Assembly: GCA_016787485.1 (NCBI GenBank)
Contig: JAEUUL010000038.1
Coordinates: 62,001 to 126,000 of the forward strand
DNA from: Bacteroidota bacterium
Lineage (GTDB): Bacteria > Bacteroidota > Bacteroidia > NS11-12g > UBA955
Direction: 5' to 3'
DNA length: 64,000 bases
Made by a program: the position numbers and the translations under genes. Each line of letters begins with the position of its first letter. The first letter of the stretch is position 1. The notes beneath the pieces are model-generated. The model searched no databases, was not told the origin of the DNA, and was given only the letters and a program-made list of their open reading frames with translations. Below, piece by piece: positions 30,828-41,971 of the stretch.

Positions 30828-31316
30828 ATGGCTGCTCCTTCCTTTCAGCTTCTGACTTCCCCCCAAAGATGGATAGCAGGTATTCCCGCCAATTTTGAAA
30901 ATGTAATGCAGGCCGATACCCGCCATTGGCAACAGTTTATGCCACGGTTGCGCGGGATAAAAAACCGGCTGGGCGGGCATCTGGTCTCAGCCAGTGTATA
31001 TCAGCCATCAGAAAACGGCCTTTTCAACCCGTTTGCCCCTGTACAAAAATGGGCTGGCGTTGAAGTGGAAACCGGGGAGGCGCTGCCTGAAGGCATGCAC
31101 ACGCTTCTGATTCCGGCAGGAGAGTATGCTGTATTCAGATACCAAGGGTTGCCATCGGGTGCTTCTTCTTTTTTCAAGGCTGTATTCTCAGAAAGCCTTC
31201 CCCAGGCCGGGCTACTTATCGATAGCCGACCCCATTTCGAATTGTTACCCCCCGGCTACAGTGCCACCGATCCCAACGCAGAGGAAGAAGTGTGGGTGCC
31301 GGTGATGAGGATGTGA
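30828..31316 (+). CDS. GyrI-like / AraC effector-binding domain protein
   Basis: A 162-residue protein that looks like a stand-alone GyrI-like (SRPBCC-neighbouring, effector-binding) domain: an N-terminal half with RWIAGIP and an internal repeat of the same layout with GEYAVFRYQG and a C-terminal EVWVPV. Such domains bind small hydrophobic ligands and are often fused to MerR or AraC regulators; no DNA-binding part is present here. Its stop codon overlaps the predicted 3' end of the tracrRNA on the other strand by about one base. Confidence 0.7.
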   Translation: MAAPSFQLLTSPQRWIAGIPANFENVMQADTRHWQQFMPRLRGIKNRLGGHLVSASVYQPSENGLFNPFAPVQKWAGVEVETGEALPEGMHTLLIPAGEYAVFRYQGLPSGASSFFKAVFSESLPQAGLLIDSRPHFELLPPGYSATDPNAEEEVWVPVMRM

Positions 31317-31405
31317 AAAAGTGCCTTAAACACAGCGACCCCACTTGCGTGAGGCCCCTGGAGTAGTTTTCACAACGGAATAATCCTTATTGTGAATTGC
31401 TTCAC
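31316..31405 (-). ncRNA. tracrRNA of the type II-C CRISPR system
   Basis: About 90 bases on the minus strand, directly upstream of and divergent from cas9. The 5' end is the anti-repeat: 31390-31402 contains TTGTGAATTGCTT on the plus strand, identical to 13 bases of the repeat in crRNA sense, and pairing continues past a one-base bulge. After it comes AAGGATTATTCCGTTGTGAA, a stretch characteristic of Bacteroidota II-C tracrRNAs, then a stem CCTCAC/GTGGGG closed by a GCAA tetraloop (31339-31354), and a T run at 31316-31320. The last hairpin before the T run is weak (GTG/CAC). The anti-repeat fixes the sense of the array: crRNAs come from the minus strand. Confidence 0.9.
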
Positions 31406-31408
31406 TTG

Positions 31409-31439
31409 CAAAATTAGAAACTATTTACCAATTTGCAAA
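31409..31439 (-). promoter_or_regulatory. Promoter of tracrRNA
   Basis: On the minus strand TTTG (31436-31439) is followed after exactly 19 bases by TAATTTTG (31409-31416), a full match to the Bacteroidota promoter. Transcription from about 31405 would start precisely at the anti-repeat, so the primary transcript needs no 5' trimming. The -33 element sits in the cas9 leader, 6 bases from the cas9 ATG, so the divergent cas9 and tracrRNA promoters must overlap or interlock. Confidence 0.8.
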
Positions 31440-31444
31440 TAATT

Positions 31445-34400
31445 ATGAAATCAAAATTAATTGTAGGTTTAGATATTGGAGTCAATTCCGTAGGATTTGC
31501 AATTATTAAAGAACCTGAAAGTGGTGAACCTCAGATTCTAAAAATGGGTGTTCGCATTGTAAATGAAGATCCCAACTTTCATTTGAAATTTTATCAGGGC
31601 AATTCCGCCAGCCGCAATGCTGACAGAAGAACCAACCGCGGAATCAGGCGCGGAACAGACAGATATCAATTGCGCAGAACCCTATTAACCGAAATATTGC
31701 AACAATACAACATGATGCCAGATGAAGACCTGATGCTTAAAGTATCAGCGTTGGAATTATATGGATTACGGGCTAAAGCAGCGGTTGAAATGGTTACATT
31801 GCCAGAATTGGGTAGGATATTTTTTCACCTGAATCAGAAACGGGGATATAGCAGCATGCGCAAAGGATATAATCCTGAGGAATCAGATTCTGAATATCTG
31901 GCCAGGATTCAGGAACTGCATGAGGAAGTAGAATTTCAAACGATTGGCCAATATTGCTATAAGAAACTCCAGAAGAACCCGCTATATCGTCTTAGGGAAA
32001 GCACATTTCTACGAACTGACTACCAACGGGAATTTGATGCGATATGGAATGAGCAAAAAAAGCATTATCCATCTTTACTTACTGGTGGACCCGAAGAAAA
32101 AGATAACCGGGGTACTTTATACCGTGCAATACGAAACGAAATCATTTATTACCAAAGACCTCTGAAAAGTGCAAAGCATTTGGTTTCCAATTGCACATTT
32201 GAACCTTACAAAAAGGTCATACCCAAATCTCATCCACTGTTTCAAAGTTTCAGAATCTGGCAAGTGATAAATAACCTGGTAGCCAAGGCATACGATGGAG
32301 AAGAAGTGCTTCCCACTGAAATTCAGAGATTGAAGTTATTTGAAGAATTACATTTAAAGCGCAAAATCTCTGCTACAGGTATATTGAAAATCATGGGGCT
32401 AAAAAATGGAGAATACACCCTGAATTATGAAGAAATTCCCGGAAATCTCACATGGATTAACTGTTATCTTGCACTGAAAGAGATTGGAGAAGAAACCTTA
32501 ATGAGGTCCTGGTTGAGTCAGGGTGTGGAATATTCCGAGCAACATCCTTTCGTCAAATACTGGCATATCACTTATAGTCTGGAAACCGAAAAAGATGTAA
32601 TTCACGCATTACAATCCCAATTGAATTTCACTGAAACGGCCGCAGTTCAAATCGCAAAAAAAATAGGATATACCAATGATTACGGTTCATTGAGTTCTAA
32701 AGCTATCCGCAGAATTTTGCCACACCTGTTAAAAGGCTTGACCTACGACAAGGCCGTTCTTGAAGCCAAATATGAACACCACAGCAATATATATAACGTA
32801 ACCAACATTAAAGACATTTTACCTCCAGTATTGCCAAACACATTGAGAAATCCGGTTGTTGAACAGATTCTCAATCAGGTTGTCAATGTAGTTAATACCA
32901 TTACTGACAGGTATGGCAAACCCGACGAGTTTCGGATTGAAATGGCAAGGGAGTTAAAAAGCAATGCAAAAAAAAGAAAGCGCGTATTTACTGAAAATAA
33001 CAACAGAAAAAAACAAGCTGATGAAATCATCCATGATTTAAAAGAACGATATGGATTCAAAAGGGTAAATATGCGTGATGTGCAAAGATGGCGGCTATGG
33101 GAAGAAACGGACCAGATGTGTTTGTATTGCACCAGGCATATCAAATTTGAGGATGTATACAAAGGCAATGCAGACATAGAACATATCATACCCAGAAGCC
33201 GCATATTCTCTGATGCGCATACCAACTTTATTCTTGCGCACACCTCCTGCAACCGGAACAAAGGCCAAATGACAGCTTATGATTATATGGCATCAAAGCC
33301 CAAAGAAGATTTTGAGGCCTATTTATCCAGTATAGCTAAGCTTTTCAAATTGAAAAAAATCAGCACACCCAAAAGGGACAATCTCTTAATGAAAGGTGAT
33401 GAAATCCCTTCAGACTTTCTAAACAGGCAGCTAAATGACACACAATACGTAGCAAGAGAAACCATTGCTATGCTCAAACAGGTTTGTAAAAATGTATATA
33501 CAACCACAGGAAGCGTGACAGATCTGCTCAAAGAAAAATGGAATTTAAAGCATGTACTTGAAGAGGTGAATATGGAGACATACCGTGAAGCGGGACTTAC
33601 CAATCCTGTGGAAGTACTACCCGGGAAAATAGTGGAGAAAATAACCAACTGGGAAAAGCGCAAAGACCACCGCCACCATGCGCTGGATGCACTCGCCATT
33701 GCCTTAACCAAACAATCCTATATTCAAAGACTGAATACGCTTTCAGCCAATTATCTCACCTATCAGAATTTAAAAGAATCTCCATACGATTTCCCTGCGC
33801 CCATCAAAGATATGCGCAAACTGGTGACCGAACACCTGAATGGGATTCTGGTCAGCTTTAAAAAACCCAATTCCAAATTGTTGACCAAAAAGACCAACAA
33901 AATCAAGCTGGCCAATGGGAAAACCGCAACACAGGAAACCTGGGTACCCAGAGGCAGTTTGCACAACGACACCATAATGGGAAGAATAAAAAGATACAAA
34001 AAGACAGACTGGAAGGAGGCGTTAGAGAATCCCGGCAATTTGGTATCGGTTGAAGTAAAAACTGCATTGCTTGAATTTGTAAAATCATCCGGTGATGCCA
34101 AAAAAGCTTTGACCACATTGAAAAAAGAAGGATTAAATGTGAATGGAGCTATCATAACTCAACCATTGATTTGGGACTATGTATTTACAAAAAGGGTAAA
34201 GTTATCTGAACAACTGACGACTGCCCAAATAACCAAAATAGCGGACACCAGAATCAAACGCCTGGTTGAGCAAAGGGTAAAAGAAGCTGGAAGTATTAAA
34301 GCCGCATTCAAAGATTATGCAAGCAATCCGATTTATTTAAATGAGAACAAACGAATCCCGATAAAAACGGTAACCGTTGAGGATAGGAGTTCACTTGTAC

Positions 34401-34847
34401 CTGTAAGAACTGGCTACGCCGTATTGGGAAACAACCACCATGCTATTATTTATAAGGATGCGACTGGTAAGTTTACTGAAAAAATTGTTTCGTTTTGGGA
34501 GGTCGTTGAAAGTGCTTTACAAAATTGGCGAACCACAGGGAAAATTTATCCGGTGATCAATACAAATCCTGACCCGGAAAAGGGTGAAGTCTATATGACT
34601 CTTCAAATCAACGACTTGTTTCTAATAGAATTACCTGAGGAACTAAAACACAGCCATGAGACAAATCAACTCACACCTTATATATATCGTTTGCAAAAAT
34701 TGAGTGCGGGTGATTATGTTTTCAGACATCAATACCAAACCAATTTAGAACTCGAACTCCCCTTTGCGATGAAAAGAATACAATCATTGTCGAAATTTAC
34801 CACGATTCAAAAGGTGCAAATCAATGCTTTGGGTGAAATTATAAGAA

Positions 34848-34855
<8 letters not shown>
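31445..34855 (+). CDS. cas9: CRISPR-associated endonuclease Cas9, type II-C
   Basis: The RNA-guided effector nuclease, 1136 residues, compact as in many II-C systems. RuvC-I is LIVGLDIGVNSVG with Asp10; an Arg-rich bridge helix follows (ASRNADRRTNRGIRRGTDRY); RuvC-II is RIEMARELK with Glu499; the HNH domain has a zinc-like CLYC, catalytic Asp577 and His580 in DIEHIIPRSR, and Asn603 in CNRNKG; RuvC-III is HHALDA with His745 and Asp748. All nuclease residues are intact. The rest should be the wedge and PAM-interacting domain. I use the ATG at MKSKLIVGLD rather than a TTG four codons earlier, which falls in the tracrRNA promoter. Lines I counted are near 28-48 percent G+C, lower than the neighbours, suggesting transfer. 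cas1 follows with an 8-base overlap. Confidence 0.98.
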
Positions 34856-36100
<1,245 letters not shown>

Positions 36101-36210
36101 CAGAATGCAAAAAAAGGAAGTTTCACTGCAAACTGGCCGTCACATTCCACACAATCTCAATCCTAAAACAAAGGATAAAGCCCGCCCATGGCGAACTTTA
36201 TCCTTTTACG
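36101..36210 (+). other. cas2-array interval (leader-like region)
   Basis: One hundred and ten bases between the cas2 stop and the first repeat. No promoter consensus is seen in the plus direction. In the usual II-C layout the cas2-proximal end is where new spacers enter, and the damaged repeat at the far end (38717-38752) supports this. The last 41 bases hold the hairpin described separately. Confidence 0.6.
36170..36206. terminator. Two-way terminator hairpin between cas2 and the CRISPR array
   Basis: A perfect 11-base stem, AAAGGATAAAG / CTTTATCCTTT, with an inner CGCC/GGCG stem around CAT. It is followed by TTTT on the plus strand and by CCTTTGTTTTAG on the minus strand, so it could stop transcripts arriving from either side: the cas operon and the minus-strand crRNA transcripts. 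Confidence 0.7.
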
Positions 36211-38752
36211 GTTGAAGCAAATTTAAGTCTGAAAGCAATTCACAACTCAGTCGTGATTACACAGCAACCGGAACTAGTTGAAGCAAATTTAAGTCTGAAA
36301 GCAATTCACAACCTATTGCCATACATGGTTTGTACCTTACCGGTTGAAGCAAATTTAAGTCTGAAAGCAATTCACAACTTTAACAGATGTTGCAAGTGCT
36401 ATGGGAACGTTGAAGCAAATTTAAGTCTGAAAGCAATTCACAACGAAAGAGTTGGAAGGATTGCGCGATACGTTGTTGAAGCAAATTTAAGTCTGAAAGC
36501 AATTCACAACAGTGCCTATAAGGTTGCTACTTCCAGTTATGTTGAAGCAAATTTAAGTCTGAAAGCAATTCACAACAAAGAAATGTTTGCCGTTATTGTA
36601 TTTGAGGTTGAAGCAAATTTAAGTCTGAAAGCAATTCACAACAGCCTGCAAGTGTGGAAACTGCGGATAAACGTTGAAGCAAATTTAAGTCTGAAAGCAA
36701 TTCACAACCCAGGTCCACAACGGTATCCCAGTCCAGAGGTTGAAGCAAATTTAAGTCTGAAAGCAATTCACAACGCGAACTGTACGATAAGGGAAAAGTG
36801 CTGTGTTGAAGCAAATTTAAGTCTGAAAGCAATTCACAACGGAAAGGGAAAAAAGCCAGTGCATGCGGGAGTTGAAGCAAATTTAAGTCTGAAAGCAATT
36901 CACAACTACCCGCTGTAATTGCATCATGTGTGGCAGGTTGAAGCAAATTTAAGTCTGAAAGCAATTCACAACCGGCAGGAATAGCATAGTTGCCACCTGC
37001 GGGTTGAAGCAAATTTAAGTCTGAAAGCAATTCACAACAAATGTGGAATCGGTACTGGCGGCACTTAAGTTGAAGCAAATTTAAGTCTGAAAGCAATTCA
37101 CAACTGCAAGCCCTACAGAAGTAACTACTGTGATGTTGAAGCAAATTTAAGTCTGAAAGCAATTCACAACTAACAGGGCAAAGTATTCATCCGAAGTCAT
37201 GTTGAAGCAAATTTAAGTCTGAAAGCAATTCACAACCAAAATGCCAAAGCATCTGACCAACAGATAGTTGAAGCAAATTTAAGTCTGAAAGCAATTCACA
37301 ACATTGATGTAACGCATGATGATATTGTTGCAGTTGAAGCAAATTTAAGTCTGAAAGCAATTCACAACTAGGCGAGGCATACCACTACCAGGAGTGGGGT
37401 TGAAGCAAATTTAAGTCTGAAAGCAATTCACAACCAGACGTTGCAAGAAACTTGACACCCGAATGTTGAAGCAAATTTAAGTCTGAAAGCAATTCACAAC
37501 CGCATCCGGTTCATCCAGCCCACACCGTACGTTGAAGCAAATTTAAGTCTGAAAGCAATTCACAACAACGGGGTTTTGTTAATCAGCGCATTTTTCGTTG
37601 AAGCAAATTTAAGTCTGAAAGCAATTCACAACTGTACTTAATCGGTAATTTGTGCCGGGGTGTTGAAGCAAATTTAAGTCTGAAAGCAATTCACAACATA
37701 GGCAATATATATTCATTTTCAGCGGAAGTTGAAGCAAATTTAAGTCTGAAAGCAATTCACAACATATATTGGGGATACCATACGGCAAAAAAAGTTGAAG
37801 CAAATTTAAGTCTGAAAGCAATTCACAACTTGCCATTGCCGTTAAGGAAAACCCGTTTAGTTGAAGCAAATTTAAGTCTGAAAGCAATTCACAACAGTGT
37901 ACCTGTTGTACAGGTCAGCACATAGGTTGAAGCAAATTTAAGTCTGAAAGCAATTCACAACCCGCGCTTTGCATATAGCGCAAGTTTAGCCGTTGAAGCA
38001 AATTTAAGTCTGAAAGCAATTCACAACAGTTCGTGCGCCTTGCTGTTTGCGGCTTCAGTTGAAGCAAATTTAAGTCTGAAAGCAATTCACAACCTATATT
38101 CTGTATGCCGCGCAGGTATGCTGGTTGAAGCAAATTTAAGTCTGAAAGCAATTCACAACTTGGGGTTTTGGGTGGCATGCCACTGCTGGGTTGAAGCAAA
38201 TTTAAGTCTGAAAGCAATTCACAACGTGTTTCCAGCGCGCTAAAACTTTCGCGGGGTTGAAGCAAATTTAAGTCTGAAAGCAATTCACAACGCGCAAAAA
38301 TCACAATAACGCCATATAAACGTTGAAGCAAATTTAAGTCTGAAAGCAATTCACAACTGCCAGCATGTACTTCAGCACCTGGGCTATGTTGAAGCAAATT
38401 TAAGTCTGAAAGCAATTCACAACGCAGTAGGTCTGCATCTGTGGCGCGGTTGTGTTGAAGCAAATTTAAGTCTGAAAGCAATTCACAACAAGGAAATGTT
38501 TGCCGTTATTGCATTTGAGGTTGAAGCAAATTTAAGTCTGAAAGCAATTCACAACTATATGAAGATGTTGGGGTATTGGTTAAAAGTTGAAGCAAATTTA
38601 AGTCTGAAAGCAATTCACAACGTTTGAATTCTTGGCAAATGACAAAAATGGTTGAAGCAAATTTAAGTCTGAAAGCAATTCACAACGTGGGAAACCGTCT
38701 GGGCTGATTCTGTGGCGTTGAAGCAAATTTAAGTCTGAAAGCAATTCACATT
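36211..38752. CRISPR. CRISPR array, 39 repeats and 38 spacers, transcribed from the minus strand
   Basis: The 36-base repeat begins GTTGAAGCAA and ends AATTCACAAC on the plus strand. I located 39 copies, starting at 36211 and then every 66 bases except after repeats 22 and 37, where the period is 65. Thirty-six spacers are 30 bases and two are 29. All copies look identical except the last (38717), whose final two bases are TT instead of AC. The anti-repeat of the tracrRNA pairs with the minus-strand sense of the repeat, so crRNAs have the form spacer followed by GTTGTGAATTGCTTTC... Read in that sense each repeat carries TTG (position 2-4), 17 bases, TAAATTTG (position 22-29): a promoter. Spacers 6 and 35 are near-identical. 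No spacer target was recognised by eye in this window. Confidence 0.98.
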
Positions 38753-38808: not shown

Positions 38809-40380
38809 TCACATCTTCTGAACCGGTACCACCTGCCTGTATTGCAGATCCTGATATACCAGCAGGTATTTGCCCGCCGGAATATGCGCCAGAGACATTT
38901 CCAGACGGTGGCTGCCTGCAGGCATTTGGGTGTCAACCAGTGTTTCCACCATCCGTCCGGCATAATCCATCAGAGAAATCTGCACCCTTTGGCCACTGCT
39001 GATGTATTGCAAGACCGCACTATCGGTAAACGGATTGGGATTGCAACTGAGCAGCAGCCTGCCTTTGCCGGCCAGACTCCGCACTGCGTTTCCGTTGCAT
39101 CCCTGTGCAATCAGTGGCAGGTAATTGAATTTTTTGAGCAATATGTTTTCCACCTGGGTATCATTCAGGCAAAACCAGTCGTTGAGCAGGGTGGCATAAA
39201 TCTGTCTGAAGTCGTACTGCATGGGCAGGTTATCGTCCACCTTTACCGTTGTGGGGATGGTGGGGTTTACTCCGGTCATTTTGCCCCCATTCACAGCGTT
39301 ACCAAAGATGAAGACAGGGGCTGCGGCACCATGGTCAGTTCCCATACTGTCATTGCTGCGGATTCTGCGGCCAAACTCGCTGAGGGTAGCACCCACCACA
39401 CGGTCTGCAATGCCCAGAAATTCACAATCGGCCTGAAACGCCACGATGGCATCGTTCAGGGTTTTCATCAGGTTGGCATGGATGCCTTTGGTGGGATCTG
39501 TTTTGTCCGATTGTGAACTGTGTGTATCAAATCCGCCAATGCTCACCATATACACCCTGGTTTGCAAACCACCTGCCACAAGGCGGGCCACCGTTTTCAG
39601 CTGATTGGCAAGGTCGGTATCCGGATAGGGTTTCTGCGATGTGACTTTAGCAGCCGCATTCTTTATGGTTTTGCTGTAAGCACTGGTTTGCTCGGCTATG
39701 GTGCGCACATAGGTCAGTTGTTCGCCGGCATGGGTAGAAGGTGCCGTATCCGGAATCCCGATGGTGCTGTTGAATACATTGTTCGGATCGGTGATAGCCA
39801 TACCCAGATTGGTGGCCGGGCCCTGAAACATGAGGGTGAGCAGACTGCCCACCTGTATGCCAAGCGGGTCAGGATTGGCGGTGCTGGGGTAACCCACCGG
39901 AAAACCGGGGTATTCCATGTTCAGGTAGCGGCCTGCCATGCCCGATGCCACGTACTGGTCGCTGTCGCTGGCGCTGAACCATATATCCTGACTGCGGAAA
40001 TGCGAATAATTCTGATTGGGGTACCCTACAGACTGCACGATATGCAATTTGCCGTTGTTGTACATCTGCTGCAACCCCTGCAGGGATGGATGCAGTCCGG
40101 TTGCAGTTGTCCCGTTCAATCCCAATACTTTGTTGGATGGAATCAGTATATTGCTTCGTGCAGTGGACAAATTGCTGTATTGGTCCAGCGGGATGACGGT
40201 ATTCAATCCGTCGTTTCCTCCTGCAAGGTCTATCAACACCAACACATGGTCGGTTTGTGTAGCCATTGCTGCCAGTCTGGACAGCAACGAATCGGGCCGC
40301 ATGGCTGCCAGGGCATTGTTATTCACAGTTACCGGAAGCAGGGCAGCACCGGTGGTTTTTAAAAATGTGCTTCTTTTCAT
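38809..40380 (-). CDS. DUF1501-domain protein with T9SS sorting domain
   Basis: A 523-residue exported protein. The N-terminus MKRSTFLKTTGAALLPV resembles the twin-arginine-like leaders of DUF1501 proteins (Lys-Arg rather than Arg-Arg). The DUF1501 core shows VLIDLAGGNDGLNTVIP, YPNQNYSHFRSQDIW, STIGIPD, GGFDTHSSQ and LSEFGRRIRSNDSMGTDHG, an alkaline-phosphatase/sulfatase-like fold of unknown activity. The last 80 residues are a type IX sorting domain (LSCNPNPFTDSAVLQY ... PAGKYLLVYQ). The start follows the DUF1800 stop by 10 bases; an ATG 17 codons earlier would overlap it. The pair is a common Bacteroidota and Planctomycetes neighbourhood. The CRISPR array begins 56 bases after the stop on the same strand. 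Confidence 0.9.
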   Translation of the reverse strand: MKRSTFLKTTGAALLPVTVNNNALAAMRPDSLLSRLAAMATQTDHVLVLIDLAGGNDGLNTVIPLDQYSNLSTARSNILIPSNKVLGLNGTTATGLHPSLQGLQQMYNNGKLHIVQSVGYPNQNYSHFRSQDIWFSASDSDQYVASGMAGRYLNMEYPGFPVGYPSTANPDPLGIQVGSLLTLMFQGPATNLGMAITDPNNVFNSTIGIPDTAPSTHAGEQLTYVRTIAEQTSAYSKTIKNAAAKVTSQKPYPDTDLANQLKTVARLVAGGLQTRVYMVSIGGFDTHSSQSDKTDPTKGIHANLMKTLNDAIVAFQADCEFLGIADRVVGATLSEFGRRIRSNDSMGTDHGAAAPVFIFGNAVNGGKMTGVNPTIPTTVKVDDNLPMQYDFRQIYATLLNDWFCLNDTQVENILLKKFNYLPLIAQGCNGNAVRSLAGKGRLLLSCNPNPFTDSAVLQYISSGQRVQISLMDYAGRMVETLVDTQMPAGSHRLEMSLAHIPAGKYLLVYQDLQYRQVVPVQKM

Positions 40381-40390
40381 GTTCCGGCTC

Positions 40391-41971
40391 TTAGAAAATC
40401 TGATAATGGGGGGATTGGGTAAGGTACACATACAGATTTTGCAGGCGCGTACTCACCACTTGTTTTTTCGTAGTATCTCCGGGGTTGTTGATATAGTCAT
40501 TCCACGCATCCGACCAGTAACTGTCTGAGCTTTGTCCGCTGAGTAATATTTGTTTTTTAATAAGAAAAACGGTGGTACTCAGAATGTCAATCAAATACAT
40601 GTCACCCAGCAAATCGGACAGAAACTGATTGGGGTCTGCCACATTGCTGAACTGCGCTGCTGCTTTTACCGGATCGAAGGAATTGTTGTACCCGCCATAC
40701 AGCATATAATTGGTATAATTGATGCGTTTGGGAAGGGTATCGCTGTTGATCCAGATCTGATAATACTGAGGCCCCTGATAAAAAGCAGGCCATCCCGCCA
40801 CATTTGGCGGATCTCCCAGAGCCTGGGCCTGAATATAGGCGGTATAATACAGGTCAAGATAAAACCTGTAGACTGTTTCCAACGGAGCCGATGGCGGGGT
40901 TATGCTGTTTTCGCGGGCAAATCCAACCACCAGATCCAACGGTGTTTTTATTTGTGCACCCACTACAGACGCATCATAAAAATGCTCGCTTTTGAGCAAT
41001 TTATCCAGTACCGGTTTGAGATTGTAACTATTGTTTCTGTAGATTGTGGCAAGCGGTTCAATGATATTTGTCTCTACCGTTGCATCAATTTCATGGTATA
41101 CAAAATAGCGATAGATTTTGCGGCAAATAAATTTCGCACATTCATCGGTGGCCAGTATCATATCCACCAGTTCATCCAGCTCTCCTGCACCTGCTGAGCC
41201 TGATTTTCCGGTGATCACCTTATTTCCGTAAAATGCACTGAACGTTTTGTCTCCGGTGTCGTGCAGGGTGTCGAAAAATTTATAGGTTTGTGCATTCCAG
41301 TCCAAACTGTGACCGGTAAGAATACGGGCAGCTTCCTTCACATCATTTTCGGTATACTGGCTTCCACTGCCCTTTCCCACCCCAAAAAGCTCCTGCAATT
41401 CCCTTCCGTAATTTTCATCGGGCGAAAATTTGGTATTCAGGTAGCCGTTGAGATAATGCAGCATCTGCGGATTTTTGCTCACTTCTATCATGAGTGTACG
41501 CAGGGGTGAAAAAGTGTGGGTGCGGAACAATTCGATCAAACGGTAGGCCGCAGTGGCCCCGCCCCCTGCTTTCAATTCTGTTACAAAATGATCACTCCAG
41601 AACACCATCATCTTTTCCTGAATGCTTCGGCCCTGATTCACCAGATTCGAAATCCACCAGGCTTTCAGTGATTCACCACGAAAGAAATTGGTGGTTCCAT
41701 CCCCATAGGTTCCGTTTACCCAGGTGCTGCCTTTGGGCACATTGTCGGCATCTTTCATGGGCGTGCCGCTGTTGTCCAGACCTTCGTAATAGTTGAGTGG
41801 TGGCGCGGGGGCAGAACCGGGCAATGTAAGCAACTCATCTACAGACTGGGTAATCGTTTTACCCAGGAAATACTCTACGTCTGCAGGTTTTGCACCGTAC
41901 AGGGTTCTTTTGAGCAAATGCACCACCTGTCTTCGTCCCCAGGTACCGGTATATGGATTTAATCCTGACAT
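40391..41971 (-). CDS. DUF1800-domain protein
   Basis: A 526-residue protein of the DUF1800 family, which is almost always encoded next to DUF1501. Typical features are the N-terminal HLLKRTLYGAKPADVEYF, KMMVFWSDHFV, the NYGRELQELFGVG block, DVKEAARILTGHSLDW, KFICRKIYRYFV and GDPPNVAGWPAF. No clear signal peptide is present at the chosen ATG, so its location is uncertain. The function of the family is not established. It is the first gene of a two-gene unit with the DUF1501 protein. The 217 bases upstream show no exact promoter match and no other gene. Confidence 0.9.
   Translation of the reverse strand: MSGLNPYTGTWGRRQVVHLLKRTLYGAKPADVEYFLGKTITQSVDELLTLPGSAPAPPLNYYEGLDNSGTPMKDADNVPKGSTWVNGTYGDGTTNFFRGESLKAWWISNLVNQGRSIQEKMMVFWSDHFVTELKAGGGATAAYRLIELFRTHTFSPLRTLMIEVSKNPQMLHYLNGYLNTKFSPDENYGRELQELFGVGKGSGSQYTENDVKEAARILTGHSLDWNAQTYKFFDTLHDTGDKTFSAFYGNKVITGKSGSAGAGELDELVDMILATDECAKFICRKIYRYFVYHEIDATVETNIIEPLATIYRNNSYNLKPVLDKLLKSEHFYDASVVGAQIKTPLDLVVGFARENSITPPSAPLETVYRFYLDLYYTAYIQAQALGDPPNVAGWPAFYQGPQYYQIWINSDTLPKRINYTNYMLYGGYNNSFDPVKAAAQFSNVADPNQFLSDLLGDMYLIDILSTTVFLIKKQILLSGQSSDSYWSDAWNDYINNPGDTTKKQVVSTRLQNLYVYLTQSPHYQIF

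Follow-up and report, generated by a model that had tools for sequence, protein, structure and literature searches.

A probable promoter element of the Bacteroidota type within the repeats of a type II-C CRISPR array

In the type II-C CRISPR system of Neisseria meningitidis, Zhang et al. are said to have found in 2013 that every repeat contains a promoter and that a leader promoter is not needed; the Neisseria elements are of the sigma-70 type. The II-C repeats of Campylobacter jejuni end in an extended -10 element, GGTAAAAT (Dugar et al. 2013, PMC3656092). Among Bacteroidota, a repeat-encoded promoter was proposed for Flavobacterium columnare from a TTG alone and eight reads (Hoikkala et al. 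2021, PMC8092290), and a 2023 paper made the same TTG-based proposal for F. psychrophilum, applying the TAnnTTTG element only to cas9 (PMC10309648). The sole element named in both proposals is a TTG located 33-35 bp before each spacer, with no -7 element and no phylum-wide test, and the evidence consists either of few reads or of RNA-seq that leaves starts unmapped (PMC8092290, PMC10309648). A survey of extra repeats in II-C arrays found the first repeat to be mutated mainly in its first 15 nt with the promoter part retained (Feussner et al. 2025, PMC12080349), but it focused on extraneous crRNA and did not bring in the Bacteroidota promoter element. A 2016 study of Riemerella, using a standard predictor, reported no promoter in the repeats (PMC5006608). 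TAnnTTTG itself is the -7 element of the Bacteroidota primary (sigma-ABfr) promoter consensus (PMC7366714), and no description of it in CRISPR repeats was met in the papers and abstracts consulted after a full-text search of openly accessible journal articles. Repeat-embedded promoters are established for II-C systems, in Neisseria and Campylobacter; what appears to be new here is the -7 TAnnTTTG element within the repeats.

The locus considered here lies in a window of 64,000 nucleotides from a Bacteroidota bacterium (contig JAEUUL010000038.1, positions 62,001 to 126,000), to which all coordinates refer. Its gene content, cas9, cas1, cas2 and a predicted tracrRNA with an anti-repeat and a terminator, identifies it as a type II-C system, and the host belongs to the Bacteroidota. 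There is no fourth cas gene, csn2 or cas4, between cas9 and the array, and Rfam gave no match at the locus. Its features are as follows.

About 31316 to 31405, minus strand: predicted tracrRNA, with anti-repeat, hairpins, a terminator stem (31333-31321) and a T-run (31320-31316)
31389 to 31403, minus strand: anti-repeat GAAGCAATTCACAAT, pairing with repeat nt 1-15
31409 to 31438, minus strand: tracrRNA promoter predicted by sequence, TTG-N19-TAATTTTG, ending 5 nt upstream of the anti-repeat
31445 to 34855, plus strand: cas9, type II (TIGR01865)
34848 to 35756, plus strand: cas1, type II (TIGR03639)
35753 to 36100, plus strand: cas2 (TIGR01573), start set at the second ATG of the open reading frame
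36170 to 36206, minus strand: strong hairpin (-25.6 kcal/mol, z -4.5) just downstream, in crRNA sense, of the last repeat and before cas2
36211 to 38752, minus strand: type II-C array of 39 repeats of 36 nt and 38 spacers of 29-30 nt, crRNA sense minus
38651 to 38686, minus strand: example repeat, GTTGTGAATTGCTTTCAGACTTAAATTTGCTTCAAC, second of the array in crRNA sense
38672 to 38686, minus strand: tracrRNA-binding part of the second repeat, nt 1-15
38683 to 38685, minus strand: candidate -33 TTG of the second repeat, nt 2-4, gap 17, role putative
38658 to 38665, minus strand: -7 box TAAATTTG of the second repeat, nt 22-29 (8.1 bits with a matrix derived from tracrRNA promoters, p 0.01)
38717 to 38752, minus strand: first (oldest) repeat in crRNA sense, nt 1-2 degenerate (TTG to ATG), box kept

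In type II systems the anti-repeat base-pairs with the repeat's 5' part. Here the predicted tracrRNA lies upstream of cas9 on the minus strand with its pairing limited to repeat nt 1-15, and since it is this minus-strand anti-repeat that is complementary to those bases, the crRNA sense of the array is the minus strand. Read as crRNA, the array runs toward cas2, with all three cas genes on the plus strand. The hairpin between the array and cas2 may be a terminator or a leader element.

The locus shares with that of C. jejuni a tracrRNA, cas9-cas1-cas2 and a probable promoter located in the repeat's 3' part, which would here, too, yield one primary transcript per spacer. The C. jejuni element, however, is an ordinary extended -10 at the repeat end, with a start at spacer position 5, whereas here a TAnnTTTG element lies inside the repeat, at nt 22-29. 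As in N. meningitidis, the promoter would be borne by the repeat and no leader promoter would be needed, although the elements in Neisseria are of another type. The II-C systems of F. columnare and F. psychrophilum come from the same phylum, are transcribed toward the variable end and have had a repeat promoter proposed. A preliminary description of the locus had presented the arrangement as an independent Bacteroidota form of the Neisseria and Campylobacter solution; the occurrence of the TAnnTTTG box across the phylum supports a phylum-specific version, but the idea of a repeat promoter is not itself new, given the Flavobacterium precedent.

The same description had placed TTG-N17-TAAATTTG in each repeat in the minus sense and no such element in the plus sense, and both statements hold. 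The box occupies the identical place in all 39 repeats, and this crRNA-sense promoter element would place the array, on sequence, in the class with repeat-embedded promoters. The full motif, TTG at nt 2-4 and the box at nt 22-29, is present in 38 of the 39; the sole exception is the cas-distal repeat at 38752-38717 (AATGTG...), which has ATG at nt 2-4. In the plus sense the best -7 score is 1.9 bits, against 8.1 in crRNA sense. A start 5-8 bases past the box, which had been expected at the first bases of the next spacer, would fall at nt 34-37, that is, anywhere from the last three repeat bases to the first spacer base. Elsewhere in the window the full motif has 10 occurrences over 122,800 strand-bases (0.08 per kb of strand); a chance match within one 36-nt unit would thus be rare. 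Nevertheless, the 38 copies are one duplicated sequence, which makes the array alone a single observation and moves the real test to other lineages. Two of the spacers, at 38519-38490 and 36606-36577 on the minus strand, differ at only 2 of 30 bases, and probably represent one protospacer acquired twice from variant phages.

For this comparison, Cas9 was searched in two sets of 395 genomes (phylum and class) and the loci were retrieved, with 80 named loci added via Cas9 alignment. The resulting 201 loci, the window included, gave 150 type II arrays (Bacteroidota II-C), which were oriented by the 5' half of the repeat only and grouped into 80 clusters at an edit distance above 7. TAnnTTTG is present in crRNA sense in 32 of the 80 clusters and in antisense in 1, compared with a mean of 2.6 and a maximum of 7 in 300 dinucleotide shuffles of the 3' part; with a TTG at gap 17-23 required as well, the counts are 30 in sense, 1 in antisense and 1.5 in shuffles. 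Nor is any other pattern of the form XXnnXXXX as common as TAnnTTTG in the repeats' 3' part. Independently of the published consensus, Gibbs sampling de novo upstream of the tracrRNA anti-repeats of 55 clusters learned the motif T.92 A.92 n n T.92 T.97 T.87 G.73, which is again TAnnTTTG; the exact sequence lies within 26 nt at the anti-repeat in 31 of these 55 clusters, as opposed to 0.9% of control windows. When the matrix learned from the tracrRNA genes is applied to the repeats, 59 of 80 score at least 4 bits (antisense 4, shuffles 7.3) and 41 at least 6 bits (antisense 1, shuffles 2.1). As controls, 13 arrays taken from loci with Cas3 in the same class all lack TAnnTTTG, and none of four type II arrays from other phyla has an internal box, their repeats ending, for example, in TATAAT, TACAAT or TATGCT. 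By sequence, then, the motif in the repeats holds across lineages, and the identification of the -7 half as a repeat-embedded promoter element is well supported by this comparison. Part of the conservation of the box must reflect common descent, since TATCTTTG predominates in the repeats beyond what the consensus requires. The repeat of R. anatipestifer, one of the species sampled, contains TTG-N20-TATCTTTG, which would remove the apparent contradiction with the Riemerella study (PMC5006608).

Across 58 disjoint nearest repeat pairs, compared by gapped alignment, the six fixed bases of the box show 0.115 changes per site, as against 0.224 for the two positions within it that the consensus leaves free (p 0.005); the rates are 0.195 in the linker that precedes the box, 0.252 in the tail that follows it and 0.102 in the tracrRNA stem. 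An ungapped pairwise comparison gave no lower rate for the box, because small indels displace it, and the constraint emerges once gaps are allowed. The box is thus about as constrained, judged by these rates, as the tracrRNA stem, while its free positions are not. The suggested test had been whether promoter bases are more conserved than those needed for anti-repeat pairing; the constraint on the fixed bases is there, at a rate close to that of the stem. Nor does pairing explain the box, given that the predicted tracrRNA duplex mostly stops there: it ends at the first box base in 13 of 29 cases and before the box in 8, and the 8 overlaps are mostly at loci with a poorly defined tracrRNA start.

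The polarity of the arrays bears on where a promoter would be useful. In 60 arrays the more degenerate of the two terminal repeats is the one at the crRNA-5' end, and in 1 it is the one at the 3' end; of 143 arrays, 142 have cas2 on the crRNA-3' side and 1 on the other. These patterns indicate that spacers are added at the crRNA-3' (cas2) end, in agreement with the window, where the degenerate repeat is at the far end, and new spacers would therefore enter far from any upstream promoter. For arrays that grow in this direction an upstream leader promoter would sit in the wrong place, which favors the earlier suggestion that none is needed, with the activity of the repeats themselves inferred. 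The oldest repeats have largely lost their tracrRNA-binding half, and in 25 of 30 clusters with such truncated first repeats the box is kept. Truncation from the 5' side could account for part of this retention, and a search for hidden remnants was made as a correction; the excess is moderate when set against about 59% estimated for uniform break points. Some first repeats are changed within the box only at its free bases (L160, L105), and the same tendency of first repeats is seen in II-C systems generally (PMC12080349). In one oldest-repeat remnant (L097) the box is kept and an inverted repeat is inserted between it and the repeat end.

The repeat box matches the sigma-ABfr -7 element TAnnTTTG, and the host itself appears to use such a promoter: in 461 kb of its genome, no pattern of this form shows a greater strand excess upstream of genes than TAnnTTTG (46 versus 24). 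The longer pattern TTTG-N17-23-TAnnTTTG shows no genome-wide excess in the host over its reversal (174 versus 163), and the full motif alone is thus unfit as a promoter finder. On the minus strand, no full consensus promoter was found from the array to 48184, 9.4 kb upstream. This observation weighs against the possibility that read-through from a DUF1501-like open reading frame (38809-40431, minus strand) supplies the transcript of the array, that RNase III then cuts it and that the box is a by-product of the repeat sequence. That frame does head toward the array and stops 56 bp short of it, and a search of the interval gave no terminator. Still, we regard read-through as quite unlikely to be the explanation: it might add transcripts, yet it leaves unaccounted for a box that is constrained and strand-specific across lineages and that persists in truncated first repeats.

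Another possibility is that the box is kept for Cas1-Cas2 integration, for measuring repeat length or for crRNA processing, and not for transcription. Repeat interiors can guide integration in type II-A systems, and in the repeats studied here constraint is also seen at nt 1-4 and at the repeat end. Several observations make this reading very improbable in our judgment. The same motif precedes tracrRNA and host genes, which are not sites of integration; the start of the box ranges from nt 21 to 31 across repeats while the tracrRNA stem stays fixed; and the box mostly survives in old first repeats, which lie a long way from the end where integration occurs.

Accepting a role in transcription, one can still ask what part the TTG plays. 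TTG(2-4) hardly varies among the 80 clusters, with or without the box, and falls both within the tracrRNA stem and at the integration end, so that its role cannot be separated from these other constraints. It was lost in 28 first repeats and regained in 5, about as chance would have it, and the first repeat of the window has lost it as well. One possibility is that the -7 box acts alone, comparable to the extended -10 of Campylobacter, with TTG(2-4) kept for tracrRNA pairing and integration; its near-invariance irrespective of the box and its failure to be regained both fit, and we give this version not quite even chances. Weighing against it, a TTG stands at gap 19-20 in 21 of 35 tracrRNA promoters, and in repeats with a box the gap is mostly 18-21. 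A -33 role for TTG(2-4) is plausible. The window array has a gap of 17, which occurs in 0 of the 35 tracrRNA promoters, and of the complete promoter originally claimed for each repeat it is the -7 half, sense-specific, constrained and phylum-wide, that stands, while the -33 half is confounded.

The explanation that we consider very likely as a whole is that each repeat, read on the minus strand, would comprise two modules. The 5' module (nt 1 to about 15-22) would serve as the tracrRNA-binding tag of the preceding crRNA, and the 3' module would offer the -7 element TAAATTTG to the primary sigma factor of the phylum. RNA polymerase would then start in the last repeat bases or at the first spacer base, giving one crRNA precursor per spacer. 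Because transcription would proceed toward cas2, where spacers are added, new spacers could be expressed without a leader promoter. The tracrRNA would be made from a like promoter, TTG-N19-TAATTTTG, starting at its anti-repeat. The box, its orientation and constraint, the tracrRNA promoter motif and the array polarity can be read from the sequences; promoter activity, the start position and the use of the TTG as a -33 element are what we infer. The central claim that each repeat drives its own crRNA is strengthened by a box that is sense-specific, lies outside the pairing region, is constrained and matches tracrRNA and host promoters, with the TTG as -33 element its weaker part. In the window and in most of the related II-C systems examined, each unit of immune memory probably makes its own guide RNA, which would be a phylum-specific version of the solution known from Neisseria and Campylobacter. 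Such a mechanism would explain how II-C arrays are expressed where the RNA polymerase of the phylum does not use the usual -10/-35 promoter. It would also allow the crRNA orientation and the likely start sites of Bacteroidota arrays to be read directly from the repeat, and would guide the building of arrays that work there.

The repeats of the comparative set fall into several forms. An internal box is found in 59 clusters, mostly with repeats of 46-47 nt, and 50 of the 59 have repeats of 45-50 nt; 7 clusters of 36-nt repeats have a terminal TAnnTT-like element with TTG at 9-11 and a gap of 19; and 14 of the 80 have neither by the criteria of this analysis. We lean slightly toward a joint reading of these forms in three parts. 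Bacteroidota II-C repeats would consist of one module that binds the tracrRNA and, next to it, a -7 module, the first base of the box marking roughly where pairing stops. In the 45-50-nt repeats with an internal box, transcription would begin about 10 nt ahead of the spacer, so that crRNAs, unlike those of Campylobacter, would bear a short 5' tag derived from the repeat. A minority of 36-nt repeats would keep a terminal TAnnTT with the TTG at gap 19, and the promoter would thus have been remodeled to suit the sigma factor of the host and have changed its position in the repeat. In seven loci (L052, L083, L089, L090, L095, L096 and L098), with 36-nt repeats ending in GATATT, cas1 and cas2 lie beyond the array and point back at it, and the crRNA sense is still toward cas2. 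One genome, G469, has two type II loci (L184 and L185), one of them with a Neisseria-like repeat, GTTGTAGCTCCC...CTACAATC, without TAnnTTTG. Finally, a genome named outside Bacteroidota (Candidatus Fibrimonadaceae, L144) has a type II system of similar layout, with TAAATTTA in the repeat and TATATTTA in the tracrRNA gene.
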